Of a DNA stretch of 64,000 nt, positions 15,862 through 52,165 are shown in pieces. Position numbers and translations under genes: made by a program. The DNA is from Pandoraea communis (GTDB lineage: Bacteria > Pseudomonadota > Gammaproteobacteria > Burkholderiales > Burkholderiaceae), in assembly GCF_902459745.1 (NCBI RefSeq), contig NZ_CABPSJ010000001.1, forward strand, positions 496,001 to 560,000. Direction: 5' to 3'. A model generated the notes under the pieces. That model searched no databases. It was given only the letters and a program-made list of their open reading frames with translations, and was not told the DNA's origin. Numbering within the stretch: the stretch's first letter is position 1; every line of letters starts with the position of its first letter.

Positions 15862-16132
15862 ACCGTCCTCCGCGACACAGCCCTGCCGATTGCACCGCCA
15901 CCCGGGCAAAAATGAGTTCGCGTGCACCGCTGCGCACGCCAGAAATCCAAAATCATGACATTTCACGCTACATTGTTGAGGCGAAACATACCACATCGCC
16001 CGCAATGGCCGCCTCACAAGGGCACGCAACCCGTCAGGCGATGCGTCAGCCCCGGCGGGCCGGTGTCGGACAATGCCCGATGCCGCACGAGGAACTCGCC
16101 TACCCGCTCAACAGGAAACCGCCCGACTTGCC

Positions 16133-17050
16133 ATGACCGATGCCGCTATCGAGGTAACCGAACTATGCAAGGCCTACGACGGCCGCCCCGTCGTCGATCA
16201 CCTGTCGCTGCGCGTGGCACCGGGCGAATGCTTCGGTCTGCTGGGACCTAACGGTGCCGGCAAGACCACCACCCTGCGTATGCTGCTGGGTCTGGTCACC
16301 CCCGACGCCGGTGAAATCCGCCTCGGCGGCATGCCCATCCCGCGACTGGCGCCGCAGGCGCGACGCCGCGTCGGTGTCGTGCCGCAATTCGATAATCTGG
16401 ACCCCGACTTCACCGTGCGCGAAAACCTCGCCGTTTTCGGCCGCTACTTTGGGCTCTCTTCGGCTGACCTTCGCGAACGTGTGCCCGCTCTGCTCGCGTT
16501 TGCGCGTCTCGAATCGAAAGCGAATGCCCGCGTCAGCCAGCTCTCGGGCGGCATGAAACGACGTCTCACCCTTGCCCGTGCCCTCGTCAACAATCCCGAT
16601 CTGCTGATACTCGACGAGCCGACCACCGGTCTCGACCCGCAAGCCCGGCACCTGATCTGGGAGCGGCTCAAATCGCTGATGAACGAGGGCAAGACAATTC
16701 TGCTCACGACCCACTTCATGGAAGAAGCCGAGCGCTTGTGCCATCGCCTCTGCGTGATCGATAACGGTCGCAAGATCGCCGAGGGCACGCCACCTGACCT
16801 CGTCGCCCGGGAGATCGGCTGCGACGTCGTGGAGGTGTTCGGCGACGTGCCGCAGGCGTTGCTCGCCCGGCTCGCTCCGCTCACCGAACGCCTCGAAACC
16901 AGCGGCGAGACCCACTTCTGCTATGTGCGCGACGCCGCCCCGGTCGTGAACGCGCTGCAAGATCAGCCCGGCGTGCGCTATCTGCATCGGCGCGCCAATC
17001 TGGAGGACGTTTTCCTCAAACTCACGGGCCGGGAGATGCGCGATGACTGA
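16133..17050 (+). CDS. ABC-2 type exporter ATPase (NodI-like)
   Basis: This 305-residue ATP-binding subunit has Walker [11 protein letters not shown], the signature [12 protein letters not shown] and Walker [13 protein letters not shown]. The LPQARR-like segment and C-terminal domain resemble the NodI/DrrA group, which pairs with ABC-2 permeases for export of small molecules or oligosaccharides. The substrate cannot be told from sequence. The ATG at 16133 is used; an AGGAAA further upstream is weakly placed. The gene overlaps the permease by eight bases. Confidence 0.85.
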
Positions 17051-17927
17051 GCACGATCGACACGGCCCCGGTAGTTCTGCCCACGCGGAAGGCGCCGCTG
17101 CCGCCACGGCGAGTGCACCTCGCACCACCTCACCGAAGGGACATCCTCCCGACGCGCCCCGCTATCTCCCAGGGATCACGCCGTGGACGGGCGTCTGGCG
17201 GCGTAACTTCCTCGTATGGCGCAAGCTCGCCATTGCGTCGATGTTCGGTAATCTGGCCGACCCGATGATCTACCTCTTCGGGCTGGGATTCGGCCTCGGG
17301 ATGATGGTCGGCGACGTCGACGGCACCTCGTACATCGCATTTCTCGCCGCCGGCACTGTGGGGTCGAGCGTGATGTTCTCCGCGAGCTTCGAGTCGATGT
17401 ACTCGGCCTTCTCACGCATGCACGTTCAGCGCACATGGGAAGCGCTGATGCACACACCGCTCACATTGGGCGATGTGGTGCTTGGCGAAGTCGTATGGGC
17501 GGCCAGCAAGGCAGTGCTCTCGGGCCTCGCCATTCTGGTGGTGGCGTGCGTACTCGGCTATGCACGCATCGACAGCCTGCCCGTGGTGTTGCCTGCGGTT
17601 CTGCTCGCGGGTCTGGCGTTCGCGAGTCTGGCGATGGTAATGACGGCGCTCGCGCCGAGCTACGACTTCTTCATGTTCTATCAAACGCTCGTGATGACGC
17701 CGATGTTGCTGCTCTCCGGCGTGTTCTTCCCGCTGTCGCAACTCCCGGCAGCGGCACGTCACGTGACGGAGTGGTTGCCGCTCGCCCATGCCGTCGCGCT
17801 GATCCGTCCGGCCATGCTCGGACGCACCATCGATCTGCCGTGGCTGCATGCCGGCGCACTCGCCCTATACGCCGTCGTCGGATTCGCCGTCGCACTGGTG
17901 TTGCTGCGCCGGCGGATTCTCCGGTAG
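17043..17927 (+). CDS. ABC-2 type exporter permease (NodJ-like)
   Basis: The 294-residue membrane protein has a hydrophilic N-terminus of about 50 residues and then about six transmembrane segments, including [20 protein letters not shown] and the conserved [18 protein letters not shown]. It should form the channel for the ATPase encoded just upstream, whose stop it overlaps. NodJ-type permeases export lipo-oligosaccharides, but homologues are found widely with unknown cargo. Confidence 0.85.
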
Positions 17928-40316: not shown

Positions 40317-40799
40317 TCAGGCCTGTTGGGCAAGACAACGGCGCAGCTCGCGCGCAAACGTTTCGCGGCGATGCGGCGCAAGATAGGCACCGACAGTGAC
40401 CGAGCGGCTACCCGAGCGCAAGACAACGCGCGTACGTGGCGGCTTCTCGATGTCGATGCGCACCCAGCGGGGATTGAACTCGTACTGCGTCAACCTCTGT
40501 GCTGAACGTTGCTCGACCACAAGGCTCACAGGCGACAACCGAATGACCTCGTAATCTGTGGCATGCCGGGCATGAATGACAAACGCAACGCCCACCACGA
40601 GCAAGTCCAGGCCTGTGAACGGCAAGACCAACCACCCACCGCGCCACGCCGCAATCAAGGCAACACCCAGAGAAACGGCGGCCAACGACAGGTAGAACAG
40701 GACAAACTGGCGCGGCGATATCGCGCAGTTGCGCTTGTGCGTCCATTCCTTCGTCACCGATTCAACGTCGGAGGAAGAGGCTGCGAGCATCGCCGTCAC
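40317..40799 (-). CDS. DUF2244 membrane protein
   Basis: This 160-residue protein has two adjacent hydrophobic segments (FVLFYLSLAAVSLGVALIAA and LVLPFTGLDLLVVGVAFVIH) and a basic C-terminal domain. DUF2244 proteins are often found at the head of betaproteobacterial and alphaproteobacterial cox operons. The function is not known. It is the first gene after the likely cox promoter. Confidence 0.82.
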   Translation of the reverse strand: MTAMLAASSSDVESVTKEWTHKRNCAISPRQFVLFYLSLAAVSLGVALIAAWRGGWLVLPFTGLDLLVVGVAFVIHARHATDYEVIRLSPVSLVVEQRSAQRLTQYEFNPRWVRIDIEKPPRTRVVLRSGSRSVTVGAYLAPHRRETFARELRRCLAQQA

Positions 40800-41372
40800 C
40801 CGTGGGGCATCTTGGGTCTTTCATGTCCGACGGCCGGGAACCAGTGGCGTCCGGGCCGCGACAAACTGCCGCATTATAGAACGCGCATTCTCGAAGCGAC
40901 AACATTGATACCGAGTATTTGGCGAACCATAGCATCCTCCTGAACTCATTGATGCAAAAGGGAAATCCGGTTATTCCCCTAGCTGAAAATCTTGGCGGCC
41001 GGGCGACTACGGGATACTCCCTATGCGCCGCCGGTTTGACACGTTGCAACACGACACGACTCGTTGCGGTGTCCTGAATACCCGAACCGCACGCGTTCGT
41101 GAACGATGCTCCCCCCGTCGTCAAACGCCCGTCACGCGAATCGCGCGACGCGCTCCGCCCATCATCGCCTTCGCTGCGATGCGGGATTCGTCCGATATCC
41201 ATCAACACTAGACGCTGCGCCGGATTTCGCATGCGACGTTATGTCGCGCCCGGTGCACCGTGCGTGACACACGCTCGCGCGCCAAACCCTCACACCCCGC
41301 GTAGCGCCCCTCGATGCGCGCGTCCATATCACGCATGCTACAAGCGAAACATGTTCCCTACATCGATATGTC
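40800..41372. other. Intergenic region between the cox operon and the luxR-type gene
   Basis: These 573 bases separate the minus-strand cox operon from the plus-strand regulator. The cox promoter is at 40873-40902. In the rest I find no convincing gene, tRNA or repeat. It marks the left edge of the accessory cluster. Confidence 0.55.
40873..40902 (-). promoter_or_regulatory. Candidate sigma-70 promoter of the cox operon
   Basis: On the minus strand TTGTCG (40902-40897) is followed after 18 bases by a perfect TATAAT (40878-40873). It lies about 75 bases before the DUF2244 start. Confidence 0.55.
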
Positions 41373-42200
41373 ATGCGTGCCACGCGTTGCATTACTCCCC
41401 GCTCGTTTGCCGACGGTCTGAGCGCCTTGCACTCCGTCACTGACTTCGATGCCTTGTGCACGCTGTTGCAGTCGTTATGCCGTGCGCTCAGACATTGCTA
41501 TTTCAGCTATCGCGGGCATTTCCCGTTGCCGGGCGGCAAGCTGGCGACACCGCAACTCGGCAACCTGCCCGAAGCATGGCAAAAGCACTACGACGCTCAA
41601 CAGTACGCGAACATCGACCCGGTGCTGTCTCGTGCGCGCAGACAACTCACGCCCGTCGAATGGATGCCTGCGCTCTACACATCGCCCGAGGCCCTGCAAC
41701 TGCTTCACGACCAGCGTGCCGCAGGTCTGCGCTCCGGCATCACCTATCCGGTATTCACCCCTTCCGGGGCATCGGGAACATTGAGCCTGTCCTCGTCGCG
41801 TCGTCCGCCCCGCCATCCGCGCGCACCCGGTGCGCACGCCTGGATACAGCATGGAGGCGCCGTGCTGGCGATGCATGTGCACGAGGCTGCATGGCGCATC
41901 GTGCAACGCGACGCCGTGCGCCACCATGCCCCCGTACTAACGCCGCGCGAACGCGAGTGCCTGCGTTGGGTGGCATGCGGCAAGACTTCGTGGGAGATCG
42001 GGCGCATCCTCACGATCTCGGAACACGGCGTCGTCTTCCATTTGCGCAGCGTCATGCGCAAGTTCGACGTATCGAGCCGTCACCGAGCGGCGAAACTCGC
42101 CAGCGATTACGGGCTGCTCGACGACTTCACCTCTACGGGGCCACAAGCCGTCACTTCCGCGCCGCAAGGTCGGCGAGCGTCTTGTAACGCGTCAACGTGA
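41373..42200 (+). CDS. LuxR-type quorum-sensing regulator (solo)
   Basis: The 275-residue protein has an autoinducer-binding domain followed by a LuxR helix-turn-helix (about residues 189-245, LTPRERECLRWVACGKTSWE). All the residues usually needed for acyl-homoserine-lactone binding are there: W69, Y73, Y78, D82, P83, W97 and G122, in the order and spacing of LasR (AWQKHYDAQQYANIDP and later VEWMP). No LuxI synthase gene is in the window. It converges on the biosynthetic operon and its 3' end overlaps the flavin reductase gene by 50 bases. I infer that it controls that operon. Confidence 0.9.
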   Translation: MRATRCITPRSFADGLSALHSVTDFDALCTLLQSLCRALRHCYFSYRGHFPLPGGKLATPQLGNLPEAWQKHYDAQQYANIDPVLSRARRQLTPVEWMPALYTSPEALQLLHDQRAAGLRSGITYPVFTPSGASGTLSLSSSRRPPRHPRAPGAHAWIQHGGAVLAMHVHEAAWRIVQRDAVRHHAPVLTPRERECLRWVACGKTSWEIGRILTISEHGVVFHLRSVMRKFDVSSRHRAAKLASDYGLLDDFTSTGPQAVTSAPQGRRASCNAST

Positions 42201-42795
42201 AAGTATCGCTGGCGGCATTCACAAACGATCCGCCCCCCAGCCGTCCTACCGGACGCAATCCTTGCAAATCCACCTGATGGGTGACCGGGTCGAGCAACGC
42301 GTCGTCCACATGCGCCGCCAGCACCGTGCCGAGTACGACCCATCCTCCCCCCGGGGCGGCACTGATCTCGATGATGTCGCGCACTCGGCACTCGTACGCC
42401 ACAGCGGCCTCAAGCACGCGCGGTGGCCGCACGCGTGACGAAGGCACCGGGGTCACGCCCGTCAGATCGAATTCCGACTCGCCGGCGGGCAGCGGTGCTG
42501 CCGAGAGATTCACGGCGTCGATACACGACGCACTTGCCACGTTCACGACGAACTCGGGCACAGCCTCGACATTGCGAAGGGTGTCCTTCTTTCGCTTCGG
42601 CGCGGGGGGCACCACCGGACAGAACAACACCGTCATCGGCACGCAACATACCCCCATGAAGTAGGCATACGGTGCGAGATTCGGCCGCCCCTGCCTATCC
42701 ACCGTGCTGACCCACGCGATAGGACGCGGCAGGATCGTGCTCATCATGAAGTTGTAGATGCTCGCTTCGTCGAGCGTCGCCGGATCGAGTTCCAT
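42151..42795 (-). CDS. Flavin reductase-like FMN-binding split-barrel protein
   Basis: This 214-residue protein belongs to the flavin reductase-like family (split barrel), with ILPRPIAWVSTVDRQGRPNLAPYAYF at the start split across strand and loop and FVVNVASA in the middle. Such proteins reduce FMN/FAD with NAD(P)H or bind flavin for other reactions. In this operon it could supply electrons to the di-iron oxygenase; that is inference. I chose the ATG at 42795 because GGGAAG lies four bases upstream. A GTG at 42840 would lengthen it by 15 residues. It is the last gene of the operon. Confidence 0.85.
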   Translation of the reverse strand: MELDPATLDEASIYNFMMSTILPRPIAWVSTVDRQGRPNLAPYAYFMGVCCVPMTVLFCPVVPPAPKRKKDTLRNVEAVPEFVVNVASASCIDAVNLSAAPLPAGESEFDLTGVTPVPSSRVRPPRVLEAAVAYECRVRDIIEISAAPGGGWVVLGTVLAAHVDDALLDPVTHQVDLQGLRPVGRLGGGSFVNAASDTFTLTRYKTLADLAARK

Positions 42796-42843
42796 GTCAC
42801 TTCCCAGAGTTGTGGTGTCTGCCCGGCCGTTTGCGGGCACACG

Positions 42844-43800
42844 TTAATTTGCCGTCGCCAGCCCCGCCAAACGCAGAACATCGTTCGCACAGCCCCACGA
42901 CAACGTGAAGCCACCGCCGCCGTGACCATAGTTGTGAAGCAACCGAGAGTGACGCTCGTCGACCGCCACTCTTGCAACACGTCGCATCGGCCGGAATCCG
43001 GTGCGAGCCTCGATAACGCGCAACACGGCGACCCCCTCGCACAGTTGAGTGCAACGGCGCACGATGTCGGCGATCTGCCGGTCGCCAATAACGGTCGACG
43101 TCAGTTCCGGGTCGGCCGTGCCGCCGAGAACGATGTCGTCATCTCGCTCCACGATGTACGTCGGCGCTGCCGGATCGGAGTCGTCGATGAAGCAACCACG
43201 CACCGCAGCGTCGCGCCGGGCGCGCAACACAATGGCGCGAGAGAGCGACAACGCGTTGTCGCCGAACTGCCGGCTGCCATAGCCACAGCAATTCACCACA
43301 TAGTCGGCGTCGTCGAGCAGCGGTGCCGGATCGTCGACACGTTGCTGCTCGAAACGACCACCGAGTTCGAGAAACATATTCATCAGGTAACGAAGATAGA
43401 TCCCCGTGTCGGCGACGGGCACGGCCATACGATAAGCACATGCGAAACGTGATGGCACGTCGGTCTCCGGCAGCCGCTTGAGGTCGCGGGCGCACTCGGC
43501 CCACCATGGCACACCGGCGTCTCGACGGAAATATTCGGTGAGCGTTCGCATGAGCACGCCAGAGGATGTGTCGGCAGACAAGCGAGCCATCGTCGCGTAC
43601 GTCCGACGAGCCCGTTCGAGATAGACGAAATCGGGCGCCTGATAGAACGGATGCCAGATCGCGGCGGCGAGTGCAGATGTTGTCTGCCCCGGCCCTTCCG
43701 CGGCGTGAATAGCGACGTCGCATCCCGCCAATGCCATCGTCACGGCTGTCGTCAGGCCACTGACACCGGCGCCGAGGACGATGATGCGTTGCCGCGTCAC
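42844..43800 (-). CDS. D-amino-acid oxidase family flavoenzyme
   Basis: The 318-residue FAD protein has the N-terminal dinucleotide motif VLGAGVSGLTTAV, the substrate-carboxylate region RTGFRPMRR and the DAAO signature HNYGHGGGGFTLSWG at about residues 289-303. Family enzymes oxidise D-amino acids (or glycine derivatives) to imino acids with release of peroxide. Start is a GTG that overlaps the upstream stop as GTGA, so translation is coupled. The substrate here is unknown; it may be an amino-acid intermediate of the pathway. Confidence 0.87.
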   Translation of the reverse strand: MTRQRIIVLGAGVSGLTTAVTMALAGCDVAIHAAEGPGQTTSALAAAIWHPFYQAPDFVYLERARRTYATMARLSADTSSGVLMRTLTEYFRRDAGVPWWAECARDLKRLPETDVPSRFACAYRMAVPVADTGIYLRYLMNMFLELGGRFEQQRVDDPAPLLDDADYVVNCCGYGSRQFGDNALSLSRAIVLRARRDAAVRGCFIDDSDPAAPTYIVERDDDIVLGGTADPELTSTVIGDRQIADIVRRCTQLCEGVAVLRVIEARTGFRPMRRVARVAVDERHSRLLHNYGHGGGGFTLSWGCANDVLRLAGLATAN

Positions 43801-45059
43801 GTCTGCCCCTCCCCGCGAAAATGCCGGCGCTCTTCGGGGACGCCGCGAGGCACGGCCTTGGCATAGTCTTGTAAGTGCCCGGGCGCCACGCTATCGAAGT
43901 CCTGCGGGGCCTTCAGCCCCGTTCCTGTGCCAAGCAGCACTACCCGCGACCCGGTCTGGATTCGGCCCGTGGCGAGACATTCATGTAGCGCCGCATATCC
44001 GGCGGCCGTCGACGGTTCGAACCATAGGCCGAAACGCTGCGCCAGCGTTTGCGACGCGGCGAGAATGCGGGCATCGTCCAGCGCGACACATGCACCGCGC
44101 GTTACGCGCAATGCGTGCAGCGCCGCGAAATGATCGCGAGGACGGCTGACCGACAGACTGTCGGCGACCGTTTCCGGATTGACGACGGTGGGAGACTGCG
44201 GCAAAGCCGAGCCTTCATCGTCGTCCTGCCAATCGCGCGTGATGCTGTTCGAACTGTCGGCCTGTGCCGCCAGCAAGCGAGGCACCGCAGGCGTAATGCC
44301 CAGTGCATAGAGTTCGAGGAACCCCGCCGCGATTCCGGAAAGAATGTTGCCGTCGCCCGTCGGCACGACCACCCAATCCGGCACACACCAATCGAATGCC
44401 TCCGCCATCTCGAACGCGCAAGTTTTCTTGCCTTCGCGCGTGAAGGGATTGATGCCCGTATTGCGGCAGCACACACCGGCATCGTCGGCCATCCGTTCGG
44501 CAATCTCGAACGCATCGTCGTAAGTTCCGTCGACCTCACAGACCTTTGCGCCATAGGCGCGGATCTGCGCGAGTTTGACGAAAGGCGTGCTGGCCGGCAC
44601 GACAACAGTCGCCTGCATCCCCTGCGACGCGGCGATGCACGCCAACGACGCACCGGCATTGCCTGTCGACGCCGCTACCGTATGCGTGCATCCCGCGCGC
44701 TTCGCGACGGCCAACACCACTTCGGTGGCGCGATCCTTCAGCGATCCGCTGGGATTGCGAGCCTCGTCTTTCACCCAGAGATCGACACCCCCATCGTCGC
44801 CACAGTCGATCAGCGGCGTTTCCCCGACAACCAATCGACTGCCCCATCGGGCCTCGACGGGCAGGAGCGCACGGTATCGCCACATCCCTCGGCCGCGAAA
44901 CGTGCTCACGATGTCCCGCGCGGACGGCGCCTCACCGTTAACCTTGCGTTGGATGCGCAGATTTTGTCCGCACAGGTGGCAGCGATAACGGATCGCGCCC
45001 CAGGACTGCGGCGCCGCGCATCTCACACACGCATAACGATACGAGAAGCATGACGTCAC
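43797..45059 (-). CDS. Threonine synthase-like PLP enzyme
   Basis: This 420-residue fold-type II PLP enzyme has an N-terminal zinc ribbon (C11, C14, C27, C30), the PLP lysine K108 in NPSGSLKDRA, the SxGN loop ASTGNAGASL and the glycine-rich phosphate-binding region. Threonine synthases act on O-phosphohomoserine; relatives do beta or gamma replacements on other phosphorylated or activated amino acids. The housekeeping thrC normally sits with hom, which is absent here, so this is probably a paralogue with a pathway role. It starts with a GTG overlapping the previous stop by four bases and ends in GTGA overlap with the oxidase gene. Confidence 0.85.
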   Translation of the reverse strand: MTSCFSYRYACVRCAAPQSWGAIRYRCHLCGQNLRIQRKVNGEAPSARDIVSTFRGRGMWRYRALLPVEARWGSRLVVGETPLIDCGDDGGVDLWVKDEARNPSGSLKDRATEVVLAVAKRAGCTHTVAASTGNAGASLACIAASQGMQATVVVPASTPFVKLAQIRAYGAKVCEVDGTYDDAFEIAERMADDAGVCCRNTGINPFTREGKKTCAFEMAEAFDWCVPDWVVVPTGDGNILSGIAAGFLELYALGITPAVPRLLAAQADSSNSITRDWQDDDEGSALPQSPTVVNPETVADSLSVSRPRDHFAALHALRVTRGACVALDDARILAASQTLAQRFGLWFEPSTAAGYAALHECLATGRIQTGSRVVLLGTGTGLKAPQDFDSVAPGHLQDYAKAVPRGVPEERRHFRGEGQT

Positions 45060-46102
45060 TCAAGGCACCCCGGATTCAGTAAATGCGCCATCACGGCGTT
45101 CTGCGCATGAAGCCGGTTCCCGGCTTGCTGAAAGACCCACGACGACGGGCCGTCGATCACCTCGTCCGTCACCTCTTGTCCTCGGTCTGCGGGCAAGCAA
45201 TGCAGATACCCGGCGCCTGGTGCGGCGAGTCGCATCACGTCGGCGTCGACACGCCAGTCTCGATGACGCTCGAAGGACTCCCGCATCGCCGTCTCGTCGA
45301 CTGCATCACCGTGGCGCAGTGGCAAATGCGCGAGGCTGCACCATGATTTCGCATAGACGGCGTGCGCATCGGTCACCCCGTCGCGCAGGTCGTGAGTGAC
45401 GCGAATGCTTGCGCCCGTCTGCTCGGCAAACTGCGTGGCCGCTTGCATGACTTGCGGATCGAGACCGAACGATGCCGGATGGGCAAGCGTGACATCCATC
45501 CCCGCTTTCACGGCGGCGAGCAGCAGACTCTGCGGCACCGCCACGGGCTTGTGCCAGCTTCCGGAGTAGGCCCAACTGATGCAAAGCCGCCGCCCGGCGA
45601 GTCCTCCCAATTGCTCGCGCATCGTCATCACGTCGGCGAGCGCCTGACACGGATGAAAGCGATCGCACTCCATGTTGATGATGGGCGCCCGGCTCCATTG
45701 CGAAAATGCTTCGAGATGACGATGCGCCGCGCCGTACACCCAACCGGCCGGTGCACCGTACATGCGGATGGCGATCGCATCACCATAGGACGAAAGCACC
45801 CTCGCCACATCGGCGACACGCTCTGTCGAATAGGGAATCTCGGCCTCAGGCAGCGCTGGCGTATAAATCCCGTGATGGGGATCGAGCACGATGGCATGCC
45901 CGCCCATGCGAGACAAACCAGTCTGGAAGCTGCTGCGCGTGCGGAGTGAAGCGTTATAGAAGAGAAAGTAGATCGTCCGGCCGCGCAACGCGTCTTCGGT
46001 GGACCGCGGATATCGACGCTTGAAGGAAAGTGCCGCGTCAAGCAGCGCACGATAGTCCGGTGCGCTCATGGTCAGATCGGGGGCAAGCCAGTTGCGAGTC
46101 AC
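45056..46102 (-). CDS. Ornithine/acetylornithine carbamoyltransferase paralogue
   Basis: The 348-residue transcarbamylase has the carbamoyl-phosphate motif as SLRTR (residues 52-56; as in acetyl- and succinylornithine enzymes, where ornithine enzymes have STRTR), HPCQ at 150-153, KSW at 252-254 and HCLPADRGQEV at 301-311, which looks like ornithine carbamoyltransferase. The amino-acceptor is therefore not predictable. An attractive one is diaminopropionate, giving 3-ureidoalanine, by analogy with the carbamoyltransferase of the viomycin cluster. I chose the GTG at 46102 because AGGAG lies just upstream; the frame is open to 46213. It lies 127 bases after the oxygenase. Confidence 0.85.
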   Translation of the reverse strand: MTRNWLAPDLTMSAPDYRALLDAALSFKRRYPRSTEDALRGRTIYFLFYNASLRTRSSFQTGLSRMGGHAIVLDPHHGIYTPALPEAEIPYSTERVADVARVLSSYGDAIAIRMYGAPAGWVYGAAHRHLEAFSQWSRAPIINMECDRFHPCQALADVMTMREQLGGLAGRRLCISWAYSGSWHKPVAVPQSLLLAAVKAGMDVTLAHPASFGLDPQVMQAATQFAEQTGASIRVTHDLRDGVTDAHAVYAKSWCSLAHLPLRHGDAVDETAMRESFERHRDWRVDADVMRLAAPGAGYLHCLPADRGQEVTDEVIDGPSSWVFQQAGNRLHAQNAVMAHLLNPGCLE

Positions 46103-46229
46103 ATATCTCTCCTGATCGTCTTTCGGTGATGCTCCCGAGACAGCACCACGCTGCCTGTCGTGTTTGACGTTATCTGGCGGATATGCGCTCGCTGACCGCG
46201 GTACCCACCGCACCCGATGGGTTATCCCG

Positions 46230-47192
46230 TCAAGGAGGGCGCCAGCGGCTCACCCTCTGTGCAAAGTGCTCGGCACAGGACAGGCCCAACCGTTCGAAAA
46301 GACGTCGTGGCACGAGCGCTGCCTCCATCATCTGCACGCCCACTTCCAACGGATCGGTGCTTTCCCGGATCACGAGATCGGCTTGCGCAGCATCCAGCCC
46401 GATAGCGCGCAAGTGATCTCGCCACGCGGGAAGCTCGGGAGCGAGAAACGCCATCATCAGATCAGGTAGAAGCGCATCGAGAAACCTGCGCTCGTCAGCC
46501 GACAGCGACGGCACCCACTCACTCGCAAAGCGGACGAACGCGGCCTGATGCCGCATCTCGTCCGATGCGTGATCGCTCAGCAACGCGCGCACGGGTGGAT
46601 AAACGTCGTCGCATGCCCCGGCTTGACGCAGCGTGCCGGTAATCAACGTCTCAGTGACCGATGCCGCCGCTACGATGGACATTGCGCGATGCGTCTCGGG
46701 GGTCGTCTCGCACAACGCCAGCACGCGAACGACACTCGACGACGGCCCTTGCCCAAGCACGTATCCCGTATGGCGCTGCAGATGCCTGCGAAATCGCTCC
46801 ATCATCCACGTGTGAAACCCCTCGTCCGTGTAAATCGCCAGCAGGTCGTCCCGGCTAACCGATGCAATGCCAGGCACGTCGAGCATCTGTTCGATAGCCC
46901 GATTGACGATATGCAGCTCGACCCGCTCCGTCTTGTTCAGGTAGTCCGCCAACCGTAGCGCGCTCAATTGCTGCCGGGCTGCCTGTCCGCGTTCGCAAAC
47001 CATCGGATGCATGGCGTAAGGCATCAACGCCACGTTGAAGAACACCTGATCGGGTCGCAACGGCGGGAACGGCGCCTGCGTCGCACGACGAGTGACGGCC
47101 GCCACTTCCCGCCACGGCCGTTGCCCGTGATCGCACCCGCTGCCAACGCCGGGCACGAGTTTGGCGCCGTCCGGCAAACGGGGATCAGACAT
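46230..47192 (-). CDS. AurF-type di-iron N-oxygenase
   Basis: The 320-residue all-helical protein matches the p-aminobenzoate N-oxygenase (AurF) family. All seven ligands of the di-iron centre can be placed: E89, E124, H127, E181, H208, E212 and H215, seen in TDEGFHTW and SDHASDEMRH. Spacings equal those of AurF except for a three-residue difference before the fourth ligand. Such enzymes oxidise amines to hydroxylamines or nitro groups. The ATG at 47192 overlaps the preceding stop by eight bases; an ATG at 47225 is possible. The substrate is probably an amino-acid amine made by the operon. Confidence 0.88.
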   Translation of the reverse strand: MSDPRLPDGAKLVPGVGSGCDHGQRPWREVAAVTRRATQAPFPPLRPDQVFFNVALMPYAMHPMVCERGQAARQQLSALRLADYLNKTERVELHIVNRAIEQMLDVPGIASVSRDDLLAIYTDEGFHTWMMERFRRHLQRHTGYVLGQGPSSSVVRVLALCETTPETHRAMSIVAAASVTETLITGTLRQAGACDDVYPPVRALLSDHASDEMRHQAAFVRFASEWVPSLSADERRFLDALLPDLMMAFLAPELPAWRDHLRAIGLDAAQADLVIRESTDPLEVGVQMMEAALVPRRLFERLGLSCAEHFAQRVSRWRPP

Positions 47193-48654
47193 GGGGGAAG
47201 GCGGACGCGGCTGGCGCCGGACCATGCTCGGTCAGCGAAATCAAACTGGCCCGTTCCGGCCCGAGTCCAATCCCGGCCAGCGGCGCACCGATGTGCCGCT
47301 CGACGAAATCGACGAAGCCGTGCATCGCGGCGTCGAGTGTTCCCTCACGTCCAAGCGTAAGCGAACGCTCGTTCAGCCCGGGATAAATCAGCACATCCGG
47401 CATGACCTCGCTCGACAACACGTCAGGATGCACGCGCATCGGTATGCCCTGATACGCCGAATGAAAATAATGCGCCAGACAATCGACCTTATTGAGATAC
47501 ACGCAGTCCACCGCGTGCGCCTTGACGACCTCTCGCAACTGCGCGAGGTCAAGCATGCCGATCCGGCGCGGCCGCCCGGTGCCTGTGCCGTACTCGCCCG
47601 TCAGCATTCGAAGTGCGGTGCCGACATCGAACGGATCGTTGGAGCGCAGTAGCTCATCCGGCGAATAGCGCACTTGTTCTTCCGCTGCACCAACGTGTGA
47701 CTGCGACGCCCCGTGGCAGTATTGTGCCGAGCGCTCACCGCCCAGCTCCGAAGGAAACGGGCCTCGCCCGACGCGCGACATGATGGCTTTCGCCACGCCT
47801 ATCGTTCGACGGTGATACTTCGGCGACAGATCCCCCCCTACATAGGCGTAGGCCGGCACGGTGTGGCTCGACGTAACGTATGGCTGGCTGCCGTCAACGA
47901 CGTCGAGCAACACCGACTGCGCGCCTTCGAACAACACGTTGGCACCGTCCTTCACGCGATCCGTGAGCCATCCGCGATCCGGCTCGATGTACCCCCGCAA
48001 GGTCTGCGTGACCTTCGGCAGGCCCAACAACATGTCCGACATTTCAGCGATCCACGGCGACGTACCGCCTTCCGCATTGATCATGCGCGTGAACACGTCC
48101 CGCATCGAGGTGATGGTGTCCGCTTCGTTCTTCAGCAGATCTCCGAGCATCAGATTGACGCGTGTGTCGTGGCGCACACGCATGGCACGATCCGCGTAGC
48201 ATGGCCCGATGCCGTTGCCCGTGGTGCCGATCGTGCCACTTCCGCGCCGATCCATCGCGATGTGGTGCGGCTGCACAAGTGCTGCGCGCGCGCTGATGTG
48301 CAGCCGGCCTTCGAGCGAGATACCCATCTCGCGCAACTGTTCAATCTCGTCGGCCAGTTTCCAGGGGTTGATGGCGCACCCCGACCCGATATAGAGCGTC
48401 GCGTGCGGATGAAATACGCCGGATGGCAATTGCTTGAGCGCGATACGTCCGGAGGGCGTGTCGATGGTGTGCCCCGCGTTGGCACCGCCGTTGAAACGGG
48501 CGATCACGTCGTACCTCGGCGCGAGGGCGTCGATGATCTTCGCCTTGCCTTCGTCGCCATATTGCAAGCCGACGAGTACATCGGCGAAGCCTTCGGCGGA
48601 CTGCGAGGCGAGGGGGGAGGTGTGAAGCGAGGGGCTGGAGGATACAGAGGTCAT
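47185..48654 (-). CDS. Divergent adenylosuccinate synthetase paralogue
   Basis: This 489-residue protein is about 55 longer than usual PurA. It keeps the P-loop-like QYGDEGKAK with catalytic D34, the catalytic H62 in GGANAGHT, GTTGNGIGPCYAD, the GTP-specificity motif LNKVD and the aspartate loop as YGTGTGRPRR. It has an extra 35 or so residues at about 305-350, directly before that loop, and an N-terminal extension. Normal PurA joins IMP and aspartate with GTP. Here it may be a pathway ligase or a resistant copy of the housekeeping target. The ATG overlaps the sbnB stop as ATGA. Confidence 0.88.
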   Translation of the reverse strand: MTSVSSSPSLHTSPLASQSAEGFADVLVGLQYGDEGKAKIIDALAPRYDVIARFNGGANAGHTIDTPSGRIALKQLPSGVFHPHATLYIGSGCAINPWKLADEIEQLREMGISLEGRLHISARAALVQPHHIAMDRRGSGTIGTTGNGIGPCYADRAMRVRHDTRVNLMLGDLLKNEADTITSMRDVFTRMINAEGGTSPWIAEMSDMLLGLPKVTQTLRGYIEPDRGWLTDRVKDGANVLFEGAQSVLLDVVDGSQPYVTSSHTVPAYAYVGGDLSPKYHRRTIGVAKAIMSRVGRGPFPSELGGERSAQYCHGASQSHVGAAEEQVRYSPDELLRSNDPFDVGTALRMLTGEYGTGTGRPRRIGMLDLAQLREVVKAHAVDCVYLNKVDCLAHYFHSAYQGIPMRVHPDVLSSEVMPDVLIYPGLNERSLTLGREGTLDAAMHGFVDFVERHIGAPLAGIGLGPERASLISLTEHGPAPAASAFPHV

Positions 48655-49703
48655 GCGCGTTGCATATCGTAGAAAAATCGGGGAACCGGTGCTTGCTGCG
48701 CCGCCAGCCGGTCGTAGACCCAACGGCCGACGGCAATATCGAGAATGCCCAGGCCGAAGGGGGAAAACACGATTGGCCGGTCACGCGCCGGAGGCTCGCC
48801 ACCACAAAGCAAATGCGGCAACGATGTGGTGACGAAGCGCCGGTGGCCAGCTTCGACTTCCGTGAGATGAAGCGAGGTCATCGCGCGCAGGCAATGATCG
48901 ATGTCGTCGACCACGTTGTAAGACTCGAGAATAATCGCGGGCGCGAGGTCGCGCAGAGAGAGATGCAGCACGATTGGGCAATGCGAGAACCAATCGGGGT
49001 TCTCGAGATAGGGCGACGCCGCCGTTGTGGTGAACACGATGACATCGGCCGCGCGAATGGTGTCTTCCAGCGACGCCTCCGGGCGAGCTTCGTAACCGAG
49101 GTGCTGCCCAATTCGGGTGGCAAGCGACACCGCATAATCGTTGTTCAGATCGTGCACCGTCACCTCGCCGATCGGCAGCGTCGCGAGCGGCAAACACTCG
49201 GCCACATGACGCGCGATAACGCCCGCACCGATAAACGCCACGCGCAGGTTTTTCGACGATGCCTGCCTCATGGCAGGCACGTTGTTCGCGAGGCAGCGTA
49301 GCGCACTCATTGCACTGGCCGCCGTGCGCGCCGCGCTGATGATGCTCGCTTCCATGCACGCCATCGGATAACCGGTCGTAGCGTCGTTCAGAATGAGAAC
49401 GGCCGATGCGCGTGGCATTCCACGCTCGACGTTTTCAGGAAAACTCGATATCCATTTGATGCCGGTGACGCCATCGCCATCACCGTCGCGATCACGAATG
49501 TGCGCTGGCAGCGCGATGATGCGATTTCGTTGCTCGTCGGGGAAACGGAGAAACTGACTTTCCGGATTCACGGTGTGTCCGGCGTTGTGGGCTCGATATG
49601 CCGCTTCGACCGTATCGAGAATGGCAGACTTGTTCTCACCAATGGCAGCATCGATCTGCTCCCCGGTGAACACGCGGAATTGCGGTATCGGCAGGGCGTT
49701 CAT
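48651..49703 (-). CDS. sbnB: 2,3-diaminopropionate biosynthesis dehydrogenase SbnB
   Basis: The 350-residue protein belongs to the ornithine cyclodeaminase/mu-crystallin fold and matches SbnB, which oxidatively cleaves N-(1-amino-1-carboxy-2-ethyl)-glutamate with NAD+ to L-2,3-diaminopropionate and 2-oxoglutarate. Visible are FLRFPDEQRNRIIALPA, GIKWISSFPENVERGMPRAS, EASIISAARTAASA, the NAD loop IGAGVIARHV at about 158-167 and FSPFGLGILDIAVG near the end. Start and stop both overlap the neighbours by four bases (ATGA), showing tight coupling with sbnA and the PurA-like gene. Confidence 0.93.
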   Translation of the reverse strand: MNALPIPQFRVFTGEQIDAAIGENKSAILDTVEAAYRAHNAGHTVNPESQFLRFPDEQRNRIIALPAHIRDRDGDGDGVTGIKWISSFPENVERGMPRASAVLILNDATTGYPMACMEASIISAARTAASAMSALRCLANNVPAMRQASSKNLRVAFIGAGVIARHVAECLPLATLPIGEVTVHDLNNDYAVSLATRIGQHLGYEARPEASLEDTIRAADVIVFTTTAASPYLENPDWFSHCPIVLHLSLRDLAPAIILESYNVVDDIDHCLRAMTSLHLTEVEAGHRRFVTTSLPHLLCGGEPPARDRPIVFSPFGLGILDIAVGRWVYDRLAAQQAPVPRFFYDMQRA

Positions 49704-50785
49704 GACAATGAAGGGCTCACGATGTCGAGGGTGTGGGATGCCCCGCGAGGCGCACCGGAAAGATCGTCAACGCTGGCAGCGGCCCAGTCCGGGTCGTAGA
49801 GGGTGTCCAGATACTTGTCGCCCATGTCCGGCGCAATGGCGACGACCGTGTCGTTGGCCGCGATGTCCCCCGACGACATTTGCACGGCGCGCAGCACGCT
49901 GCCCGTCGACCCGCCTGCCAGCAAACCGCGTGCGGCCAGCATGTGACACATGCGCAGTGTGTCCGCTTCGGGGATGTGGACGATGGCGTCCGGGGGCTCC
50001 GCCTCTAGCGGTTCGCACAGCGGCGGGCGGCAGCTTGTCCCCAGTCCGGGAATGCGTCTCGGTCCCGGCGGCCCACCGAACGTGACGGAGCCGGCGGCAT
50101 CGACCGCGATGACGCGCGTCGGCAGTCGATGCGCTCGCACGTACCGCAAGCACCCGATCAACGTGCCGGTCGTGCCCGCGCCGATGAACAGATGGCCGAG
50201 GTCGGGATAGGTTGCGAAGATTTCGGGCGCCGTCCAACGGTAGTGCGCCCGCCAATTGGCGGGATTGGCATATTGATTGACCCACACCCATCGCGCATCG
50301 CGCGCCACTTGTTCCCGGATCCACGCGATGCGTGTACCGAGATAGCCGCCCTGCGCATCACGACGCTCGACGCACACGACGCGGGCGCCTGCCGCTTGCA
50401 TGGCACGGATGGCCTGACGCGAGGTATTGGGATCGGTCACACAGGTGAATCGGTAGCCGCGATTCGCACACACCATCGCCAACGCCACCCCGAGATTTCC
50501 GGACGACGACTCGACGATCTGCGTGTTCGCACAAATGCGCCCCGTCGCTTCCAGATCTTCGATCAGGTGAAGCGCAGTCTTGAGCTTGATGGAACCGGCG
50601 GGATTCAGTCCCTCCAGCTTGAGGTGAACCGTGGCGAGACACAAACCGTCAATCGCCGTGAAGACAGGAGCCGTCGGTTGCAGGAATGCGCCACCGACGC
50701 GCAACAGCAGGTCGTCGCGTGTTTTGTTGCTTGCTTCGGGCCCGACCTGCGGCGGCACCGCCAACGTTTCGTGCTGATACCCCAC
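49700..50785 (-). CDS. sbnA: 2,3-diaminopropionate biosynthesis synthase SbnA
   Basis: This 361-residue PLP enzyme of the cysteine-synthase fold joins O-phospho-L-serine and glutamate into the SbnB substrate. The PLP lysine is K67 in LNPAGSIKLKTA, followed by SSSGNLGVALAM and RDAQGGYLGTRI, segments that mark SbnA rather than CysK. The likely start is the GTG at 50785 with GGGAGG five bases upstream. A TTG at 50821 would extend it by twelve residues. It is the first gene of the operon, and a lux-box-like site lies about 125 bases upstream. Confidence 0.92.
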   Translation of the reverse strand: MGYQHETLAVPPQVGPEASNKTRDDLLLRVGGAFLQPTAPVFTAIDGLCLATVHLKLEGLNPAGSIKLKTALHLIEDLEATGRICANTQIVESSSGNLGVALAMVCANRGYRFTCVTDPNTSRQAIRAMQAAGARVVCVERRDAQGGYLGTRIAWIREQVARDARWVWVNQYANPANWRAHYRWTAPEIFATYPDLGHLFIGAGTTGTLIGCLRYVRAHRLPTRVIAVDAAGSVTFGGPPGPRRIPGLGTSCRPPLCEPLEAEPPDAIVHIPEADTLRMCHMLAARGLLAGGSTGSVLRAVQMSSGDIAANDTVVAIAPDMGDKYLDTLYDPDWAAASVDDLSGAPRGASHTLDIVSPSLS

Positions 50786-50881
50786 CCCTACCTCCCGAAG
50801 TCCCGCCCGAAGGCGACGCAATGGCGTGGCGGAGGGATTGCGGTTCGCAAAGTCCTTCGTTCATGCACGCCGTGAAGCGTC

Positions 50882-50887
50882 ATTTAA
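50882..50887 (-). promoter_or_regulatory. Candidate -10 box of the sbnA operon
   Basis: TTAAAT on the minus strand lies 97 bases before the sbnA start. If it is the -10, transcription would begin near 50875, which puts the centre of the lux-box-like palindrome at about -44. That is the geometry of class II LuxR activation, in which a poor -35 is expected. Confidence 0.4.
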
Positions 50888-50910
50888 GCGAACGGGACGA
50901 GCGCGGAACA

Positions 50911-50928
50911 CCTGCATAGTCGTGTAGG
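50911..50928. promoter_or_regulatory. Lux-box-like palindrome upstream of sbnA
   Basis: The 18-bp site CCTGCATAGTCGTGTAGG has half-sites CCTGCA and TGTAGG and satisfies the loose LuxR-family rule CT-N12-AG. It lies in the 287-bp gap between sbnA and the BioC-like gene, which otherwise shows no gene. It is a candidate binding site for the convergent LuxR-type protein. Confidence 0.5.
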
Positions 50929-51072
50929 ACGCAGGATGCGGCGGGGTATTTGGGAACCTGCGAAACGCTCTACGCTAGCAACTGCAGCTTGGGGAATCGG
51001 GAAATCGGCGGAATATCGCCGTGAACCCGTCGAACGCGCAGGCATATGCCGAAACGCGTTCGCGGATGACGC

Positions 51073-51993
51073 TCAGCGAGGCCGGCCGCCGCGCCCAATG
51101 TCCTGAATACGAACGACGGCGTTGCCTGCTGCATCGGTCTTTTCGGGAATTTTCCAGGCGTGACCGTAGACAAGCTCGAAAGTCAGCGCAATCGTGCCAT
51201 CCGGCCCGCGCTGACGCTCCAACGCCGCGCGCAAGGCCGCAAGGCGCGCCCTCCCTGTGAGCCCGCTACGACGCTCCGGCAACGGATTTACGCCAAGCAG
51301 ACGGACGTCGCGCAACAACGTATCCGGAGATTCGAACGTGAGCGTGAGGCGCTCCATGTCCGTGACAGGCGTATCGAAGCCGCTTGCGACCATCATGTCT
51401 CCCAGATCGTGCATGTCCGTCGGCTCGAGCACGTGCGCAACGTCATCGACTTCCGCCCATGCCGCGCGCAGTTCGCGCAGCGTGTCGGGGCCATAGGCCG
51501 AGAACATCAGCAATCCATCCGTACTCAGCACGCGATGCCACTCGGGAATGACGCGATGCGGCTCGCGATACCAGTGAAGTGCGAGATTCGACCACACCAG
51601 ATCGAATGTGCGCGAGGCGAACGGAAGGGCCGAGAAATCGCCCTGCACCACACCGTACGGCGGCGCAGTGCGCAGCAGCCGGCGCCAGCCAGTCGTCGCC
51701 CCTGCCGCAGCGGCCGCTTTGGCCATCGCGAACGAGGCATCCAGGCCTACGCGATAGGCGTCGGGATAGCGTTCGCCGAAGTTCAGCAAGTCGCCGCCCG
51801 TGCCACATCCGACATCCAGCACGCGTTTGGGCTTGAGCTTGATGTAATCGAGCCGGCTCGCGAGCCGCGACGCCACCTCCCGCATCAGGAAATCGGCCTC
51901 GTGCCAGTTCGGCGCGCGGCGGTCGAACGCGGTGCGCAAAAAGCGGGCGGAGAACGCTGAGGACGGGGTTTGGGGAGCGGCTGAAGGCTTCAT
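51073..51993 (-). CDS. bioC: BioC-like SAM-dependent methyltransferase
   Basis: This 306-residue class I methyltransferase has the SAM loop VLDVGCGTGGDLLNFGERYP, FDLVWSNLALHWYREPHRVI and HRVLSTDGLLMFSAYGPDTL. The set resembles betaproteobacterial BioC, which methylates malonyl-ACP at the start of biotin synthesis. No other bio gene is adjacent, so the assignment rests on family resemblance. I chose the ATG at 51993; the longer frame to 52086 would cross into the divergent comF promoter region. Confidence 0.7.
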   Translation of the reverse strand: MKPSAAPQTPSSAFSARFLRTAFDRRAPNWHEADFLMREVASRLASRLDYIKLKPKRVLDVGCGTGGDLLNFGERYPDAYRVGLDASFAMAKAAAAAGATTGWRRLLRTAPPYGVVQGDFSALPFASRTFDLVWSNLALHWYREPHRVIPEWHRVLSTDGLLMFSAYGPDTLRELRAAWAEVDDVAHVLEPTDMHDLGDMMVASGFDTPVTDMERLTLTFESPDTLLRDVRLLGVNPLPERRSGLTGRARLAALRAALERQRGPDGTIALTFELVYGHAWKIPEKTDAAGNAVVRIQDIGRGGRPR

Positions 51994-52165
51994 GGGACGG
52001 GCAAAAAGGCGAGTCGGCAGTATACTCGTTGCTGTCCGAATGCATCGGGCACCGCCAAGCGGCCCGGCCCAGACCGATCTCCGCACCTGACGGCGCAGGC
52101 AGTTCCGCCCGCCACATCACTTTGTCCCTACTATCGCCTTGCCCATCCCTCACGCCACTTTCCCC

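Follow-up and report, generated by a model that had tools for sequence, protein, structure and literature searches.

A gene cassette of Pandoraea joining diaminopropionate synthesis, a divergent adenylosuccinate synthetase and the LuxR3 solo: a candidate antimetabolite pathway

The L-alanosine pathway of Streptomyces alanosinicus uses a carrier protein, and an alanosine adduct reportedly inhibits adenylosuccinate synthetase, going by the title of a 1980 paper by Tyagi and Cooney. For the corresponding gene cluster (aln/ala), L-2,3-diaminopropionate (Dap) has been proposed as the precursor and N-oxygenation of Dap as a step, according to the accessible part of a review. Dap as precursor and N-oxygenation, both of them proposals, and the link to adenylosuccinate synthetase are what this cluster shares with the gene cassette analyzed here, which spans positions 40800-51072 of a 64,000-nucleotide stretch of Pandoraea communis DNA (contig NZ_CABPSJ010000001.1, positions 496,001 to 560,000; hereafter, the window). 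AlaD/AlnG, a flavin enzyme, and AlnA, a cupin-AraC protein, both of which the accessible literature assigns to the alanosine cluster, were not matched among the nine cassette proteins, and CreD and CreE are absent from the cassette and, according to the same sources, missing from some aln clusters too. The cassette in turn has AurF-type, carbamoyltransferase, ThrC-like and divergent adenylosuccinate synthetase (PurA2) proteins of its own. In Pandoraea, the pandorabactins are presented as the first characterized natural products of the genus in the open portion of a 2025 paper, and a regulator without a partner, the LuxR3 solo, has been reported from this genus only, with its gene downstream of those for cytochrome c oxidase and a membrane protein, and as absent from P. 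thiooxydans (Chua et al. 2019, PMC6691176, available text).

We regard it as likely that the cassette directs the synthesis of a specialized metabolite from Dap and does not belong to primary metabolism. The more specific reading favored here, to which we assign a probability of roughly 0.4, is that of a genus-level, probably quorum-controlled cassette making a Dap-derived antimetabolite, in which PurA2 would be an insensitive copy of the target. The ORF list and the Pfam and NCBIfam families define a single operon of eight minus-strand genes (42151-50821), which encode, in order, SbnA (49700-50821, with an alternative GTG start at 50785), SbnB (48651-49703), the PurA-like protein PurA2 (47185-48654; PF00709, 325.5 bits), an AurF-type diiron N-oxygenase (46230-47192), a carbamoyltransferase of the N-acetylornithine/N-succinylornithine carbamoyltransferase (AOTCase/SOTCase) type (45056-46213; PF02729 and PF00185), a ThrC-like pyridoxal phosphate (PLP) enzyme (43797-45059; PF00291), an FAD-dependent protein resembling D-amino-acid oxidase (DAO; 42844-43800; PF01266, 117 bits) and a flavin reductase-like protein (42151-42840; PF01613, 81.5 bits; present in 24/24 other genomes checked). 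The genes are tightly packed, with overlaps of 4 bases for SbnA/SbnB, SbnB/PurA2 (ATG at 48654), carbamoyltransferase/ThrC-like and ThrC-like/DAO, and of 8 bases for PurA2/AurF, provided that the latter starts at the ATG at 47192; the two gaps measure at least 16 bases (AurF/carbamoyltransferase) and 3 bases (DAO/flavin reductase). The carbamoyltransferase frame contains in-frame stops at its upstream end in one relative, and the true start probably lies inside the annotated ORF. Gene order, including that of luxR, is identical at every one of 37 loci, which represent 24 further Pandoraea genomes (13 of them twice), and dN/dS falls between 0.05 and 0.20 in 40 of 40 pairwise comparisons (eight genes, window versus five species). 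The operon is therefore not a chance arrangement. No non-ribosomal peptide synthetase (NRPS), polyketide synthase (PKS) or carrier domain was found among the nine cassette proteins with Pfam and NCBIfam. A preliminary description of this sequence had listed the eight genes and their families, overlaps of 4-8 bases at five of the seven junctions, a Dap module and the absence of NRPS, PKS and carrier proteins, all of which is borne out, and it had proposed looking for co-occurrence of SbnA, SbnB, PurA-like and AurF-like proteins, which the 37 collinear loci now document. The convergent luxR gene and a conserved site upstream of sbnA are additions to it.

The cassette is bounded by a small membrane-protein gene (40317-40799) and by bioC (51073-52086). 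Its AurF gene occurs in 28 of the 32 same-genus genomes, that of the window included, with 51-95% identity in the others, and PurA2 occurs in the same 28. Among the four without the cassette (G002, G023, G025 and G029), coxB and bioC lie close together in the last three, as they do in G033, which belongs to another genus, and only the bioC flank was recovered in the stretch of G002 that was examined. In G025, where both the operon and luxR are missing from the site, the small membrane-protein gene (matched by eye) stands directly between coxB and bioC. With the flanks joined in these three genomes, the cassette is a block that was either acquired or cleanly removed at 40.8-51.07 kb of the window. 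Its G+C content lies inside the range of the window. A contig scan with a single AurF protein, which reaches close relatives only, returned 17 loci, all of them in Pandoraea. In some Pandoraea species the flavin reductase gene and luxR3 are separated by an additional gene (L032:14092-14946, L033:4066-4920, L041:14096-14947, and within 3618-4793 of L042), which encodes an NHL-repeat protein in L032 and is similar by eye in the other three; the window has no such gene. A distant second AurF-type match (21-23% identity) is also found elsewhere in 21 of the 32 same-genus genomes (e.g. G000:C8:225746-226414).

SbnA and SbnB convert O-phosphoserine and glutamate into Dap. Both cassette homologs exceed their equivalog cut-offs (SbnA, TIGR03945, 373.0 versus 349.95 bits; SbnB, TIGR03944, 370.9 versus 326.9 bits) and should supply Dap in this cassette. 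The AurF-type protein scores above the PF11583 cut-off (80.2 versus 29.6 bits), and its E, ExxH, E and HxxxExxH motifs, which we take to be the diiron metal ligands, align with those of p-aminobenzoate N-oxygenase (3chh) over most of its length; they were counted in 36-37 of the 37 loci (24 genomes), the first pattern being a loose one. Family and ligand motifs are thus held in common with the p-aminobenzoate N-oxygenase AurF, whereas on the AurF equivalog the cassette protein reaches 32.8 versus 620 bits. The ThrC-like protein, with an N-terminal Cys4-type ribbon read by eye, scores under the NCBIfam thrC cut-offs, and the DAO-like protein stays under the cut-off of all seven NCBIfam models among the matches listed.

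The carbamoyltransferase retains the carbamoyl-phosphate motifs SLRTR, HPCQ and HCLP, and its best PDB match is an N-acetylornithine carbamoyltransferase. It scores below the AOTCase equivalog cut-off (280.1 versus 288 bits), and the residues that define AOTCases are replaced, Glu92 by Thr, Asn185 by Pro or a gap depending on the alignment, and Lys302 by Glu. SOTCases are defined by A/S/P/V/Q, P and V/I/E at these three positions, together with a substrate-binding R278; compared with this description, Glu and, in one alignment, Pro agree, Thr falls outside the listed residues and R278 corresponds to Asp (own numbering). The protein resembles enzymes acting on N-acylated ornithine, its residues agreeing completely with neither the AOTCase nor the SOTCase description, and its substrate may be a substituted diamino acid. 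A carbamoyltransferase within a Dap pathway is also known from zwittermicin A and viomycin, in the form of the Dap transcarbamylase (DPTCase), but the cassette has neither the DPTCase motifs nor an NRPS. Given the missing motifs, simple carbamoylation of Dap is not indicated. In the preliminary description, Dap was to be made and then carbamoylated and/or N-oxygenated; the first part is strengthened by the equivalog scores, and the carbamoylation, in its simple form, is weakened. Carbamoylation of Dap to albizziine, considered as a candidate product, is weakened by the lack of the HDLP and (T/S)RWQTTG motifs.

PurA2 scores below both purA equivalogs (300.5 versus 402 for NF002223; 271.3 versus 395.55 for TIGR00184). 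To characterize it, 25 cassette copies (window included) and 16 copies from a second genomic context, 41 in all, were compared with 31 canonical PurA sequences, namely those of E. coli and of the genome itself plus the 29 best-scoring from a 60-genome sample. Using E. coli numbering, D13, K16, N38, H41, T128, T129, R143 and Q224, as well as G127, T239, V273, R303, R305, K331 and D333, are kept in 41/41 PurA2 sequences. Five substitutions, G17A, Q34N, R131N, G225S and S414G, are present in all 41 and in none of the 31 canonical rows, which also lack W11Y (40/41) and T300G (39/41); R147 is M or Q in PurA2. R131 and T300 presumably contact the aspartate site, as older mutagenesis work would have it. 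Between positions 274 and 298 every PurA2 sequence has 59 residues, compared with 23 in 30 canonical sequences and 31 in the remaining one, so that 36 extra residues sit just before the 298-303 (aspartate) loop. In the Helicobacter pylori enzyme, inosine monophosphate (IMP) is contacted by Asp12, Asn37, Gly119, Thr121, Thr230, Val264, Arg294 and Arg135 (PMC11571797, Table 3, available portion); by our own mapping of the numbering, to positions 38, 127, 129, 143, 239, 273 and 303 plus the catalytic 13 and 41, all of these are unchanged in 41/41 PurA2 sequences. The counterparts of R303 and R305 hold a sulfate near IMP in the same structure (PMC11571797), which we infer to mark the site of the aspartate carboxylate. 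Phage PurZ is likewise a diverged adenylosuccinate synthetase paralog, but according to the accessible text its Asp13 has become Ser, and PurA2 retains D13 in all 41 copies. A quick maximum-likelihood tree sets both PurA2 groups, taken jointly, apart from canonical PurA (SH-aLRT support 100%); within PurA2, the cassette copies fall on one side of an 83% branch, and the second-context group reaches 49% only.

At E≤1e-75, a search of 398 genomes of the family identified PurA2 in 46, comprising the 28 Pandoraea genomes and 18 from four other genera, Caballeronia and other Burkholderiaceae among them; six Pandoraea genomes carry an additional copy elsewhere that is 50-51% identical. Fifteen of these second-context stretches (about 20 kb or less) were read, from five of the six Pandoraea genomes and 10 of the 18 others, and all 15 encode an alpha/beta hydrolase, an AraC regulator, RidA, PurA2, a PPOX-type protein and a major facilitator superfamily (MFS) transporter, whose start in G004 lies some 4.3 kb beyond the PPOX gene. 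One such operon resides on plasmid p3 of Caballeronia zhejiangensis (L086:9650-15486); the AraC regulator of this second operon has a cupin-type domain. The operon gives the impression of being catabolic or protective, with an MFS protein nearest to aromatic-acid symporters, below the cut-off for these, and no SbnA or SbnB was detected in any of the 15 stretches at E≤1e-10. In the class sample, a search of 368 genomes besides its own gave no match to PurA2 at E≤1e-80. The preliminary description had treated four of the eight enzymes as relatives of primary metabolism, and the families hold, as distant relatives. The role of the PurA-like protein is to be revised: it belongs to a clade of its own, in which the IMP and guanosine triphosphate (GTP) residues are intact and which also occurs away from Dap genes, and this suits a copy of the target, or an enzyme that uses nucleotides, more than an enzyme that modifies a free amino acid. 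As a separate observation, a solitary purA lies between gcvA-named and LysR regulator genes, near replication genes, on plasmids of Burkholderia multivorans and B. stagnalis (L087:7989-9287 and L088:7989-9287); in these two, opened from seven Burkholderia plasmid matches listed (33-34% identity), the annotated neighbors include no cassette gene.

The ninth cassette protein is encoded on the plus strand at 41373-42200, convergently with the operon, and combines an autoinducer-binding domain (PF03472) with a helix-turn-helix domain (PF00196); the 3' end of its gene overlaps the flavin reductase gene, the last of the operon, by 50 bases. As in the position published for luxR3, it adjoins cytochrome oxidase genes (PMC6691176, available text), and here the regulator shares a cassette with an operon. 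Of the six residues W57/Y61/D70/P71/W85/G113, the first five (W, Y, D, P and W) were located by eye, and in domains and position the protein matches the LuxR3 solo as published descriptions present it. A target operon of LuxR3 is named neither in the accessible text of PMC6691176 nor in that of the LuxR-solo review PMC10134790. On the other side of the operon, a block in the region upstream of sbnA (50822-51072, minus strand) is conserved while the remaining intergenic sequence diverges. It contains a lux-box-like dyad, TCCTACACGACTATGCAGGT, located 22 bases before TTAAAT, a distance that is fixed in 24 of 25 genomes. Strict CTG-N10-CAG lux boxes are absent from the 37 loci, and a looser 20-position consensus was therefore scored, to which the dyad conforms at 13-14 positions in 24 of 25 genomes and at 11 positions in L042. 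Co-insertion and this site suggest that LuxR3 probably controls the operon.

A role in ordinary purine, arginine and threonine synthesis, which the preliminary description had named as one of two outcomes that would refute it, was checked. The genome encodes a canonical PurA on contig C3 (601 bits against PF00709, compared with 326 for the cassette copy), a separate ArgF with the DxxxSMG motif of ornithine carbamoyltransferases (OTCases) and a separate ThrC-type protein with a standard N-terminal domain, and hence the cassette is not primary metabolism. That it consists of spare genes for these pathways, as the distant relationship of four of its eight operon proteins to primary-metabolism enzymes might suggest, is highly improbable, since the canonical PurA, OTCase and ThrC lie elsewhere, the PurA-like, carbamoyltransferase and ThrC-like copies all score under the NCBIfam equivalog cut-offs of their namesakes, and these copies come and go together with AurF and the Dap module, as one block. 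Under the favored reading, SbnA and SbnB, assigned at equivalog level, would make Dap, the AurF-type enzyme would then oxygenate a nitrogen, and the carbamoyltransferase would add a carbamoyl group, probably onto a substituted intermediate and not onto free Dap. The ThrC-like PLP enzyme, the DAO and the flavin reductase would presumably finish the molecule, which most likely would mimic aspartate and hit adenylosuccinate synthetase. PurA2 would be the producer's insensitive copy, with IMP, GTP and catalytic residues kept and the region before the aspartate loop remodeled, and LuxR3 would control the operon. The occurrence of PurA2 in operons devoid of SbnA and SbnB (15/15) is better explained by a resistant target than by a Dap-using enzyme; with Dap genes and without them, the simplest explanation is that PurA2 still makes adenylosuccinate, for cells that meet an aspartate-mimicking inhibitor.

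The remodeled region before the 298-303 loop would equally serve the coupling of IMP to a different amino acid. PurA2 might then be biosynthetic and link GTP-activated IMP, or a similar nucleotide, not to aspartate but to another amino acid, such as a Dap derivative, and the cluster would yield an N6-modified adenine nucleotide or use the adduct as an intermediate. This possibility, which we place on the unlikely side, draws on the retention of the IMP and GTP residues and of R303/R305 alongside clade-wide changes at R131, at T300 and in the residues preceding the loop, on the position of purA2 as third gene in a tightly overlapping operon and on phage PurZ, a precedent in the available literature for substrate change among PurA relatives; it has to contend with PurA2 operons that have no SbnA or SbnB nearby and with the absence of a nucleotidase, lyase or glycosidase among the nine cassette proteins (Pfam, NCBIfam). 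Its fuller form, in which PurA2 couples IMP to a Dap-derived N-oxygenated amino acid to give a quorum-controlled nucleotide-linked or nucleotide-derived antimetabolite, and the Caballeronia-like RidA-PurA2-PPOX operon handles a related compound, we hold to be unlikely. Dap is also a siderophore building block, in staphyloferrin B, and the product could instead be a metal-binding or signaling N-oxygenated Dap derivative, with PurA2 supplying adenosine monophosphate (AMP) or unrelated support. The siderophore-protein name of SbnA, the co-inserted luxR gene and the N-oxygenase HamC, proposed for the fragin/valdiazen pathway in the accessible part of a review, would agree with such a role, which nevertheless appears unlikely: no siderophore receptor, NRPS or iron-uptake protein is found among the nine cassette proteins (Pfam, NCBIfam), pandorabactin already serves as a siderophore of Pandoraea according to the available text of the 2025 paper, and a dedicated PurA paralog would be left unexplained.

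Several points weigh against the favored reading of an antimetabolite cassette with its own insensitive PurA. The activities and the product are predicted from the genes, and the cassette includes no transporter gene. The carbamoyltransferase has HCLP and a WAYSGSWHKP loop where Dap carbamoyltransferases have HDLP and (T/S)RWQTTG. Because R303 and R305 are kept, aspartate mimics may still bind PurA2, and because 29 of the canonical PurA sequences were picked by best score, unusual true PurA proteins are under-represented in the comparison. The second PurA2 operon, with its aromatic-acid-type MFS protein, looks catabolic. Shuffled sequences equal the lux-box match at a rate of 0.5-12.5% of trials for 24 of the genomes and 71% for the divergent L042, where the spacing to TTAAAT is also lost; given these rates and the kinship of the genomes, the match is suggestive only.

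Searches for related clusters were carried out at several phylogenetic levels. At E≤1e-8, the AurF protein was matched in 10 of 399 genomes of the order, its own and nine distant ones (≤27% identity). Nine wider stretches, from six of the distant AurF genomes and three of six Streptomyces plasmid matches, contained no other operon gene at E≤1e-4, two of the nine returning no AurF either in that search. The carbamoyltransferase had two further matches at 40% identity (E≤1e-55, 329 genomes), one of which (L175) sits by eye among argB-, argC-, argE- and argG-like genes, and nothing matched the ThrC-like protein at E≤1e-60 when 328 other Pseudomonadota genomes were searched. Four of the many plasmid matches to SbnB and DAO were opened: two records have no annotation there, a Tsukamurella plasmid shows no cassette-type genes in the neighborhood, and on a Streptomyces plasmid sbnB and sbnA are clustered with anthranilate, halogenase and carrier genes. 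Plasmids L076, L077 and L078, all from Streptomyces, have AurF-type diiron oxygenase genes beside or near asnB genes. A defense-system interpretation was also considered and set aside, with no PADLOC match for the three proteins tested. In a literature search of titles, abstracts and open text, with subscription papers mostly outside it, the gene set, the LuxR3 link and the PurA2 clade were found undescribed, in agreement with the earlier remark that no characterized cluster has this set; the enzyme families are individually known, and their combination, the LuxR3 link and the PurA2 clade appear to be new to the literature covered.

Pandoraea is an emerging lung-infection genus, and the cassette is carried by 28 of the 32 genomes searched. 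The orphan LuxR3 gains a candidate target operon, and the PurA2 clade offers a lead for genome mining, in that a duplicated PurA remodeled on its aspartate side may point to gene clusters making antimetabolites directed at PurA, or else to new ligase chemistry. Elsewhere in the window, 20 other ORFs, chosen by length, correspond to ordinary chromosome genes wherever NCBIfam gave a match. At 16073-17927, the window also encodes a NodI/NodJ-type ABC transporter pair above the NCBIfam cut-offs, in a genus that to our knowledge is not associated with nodulation.

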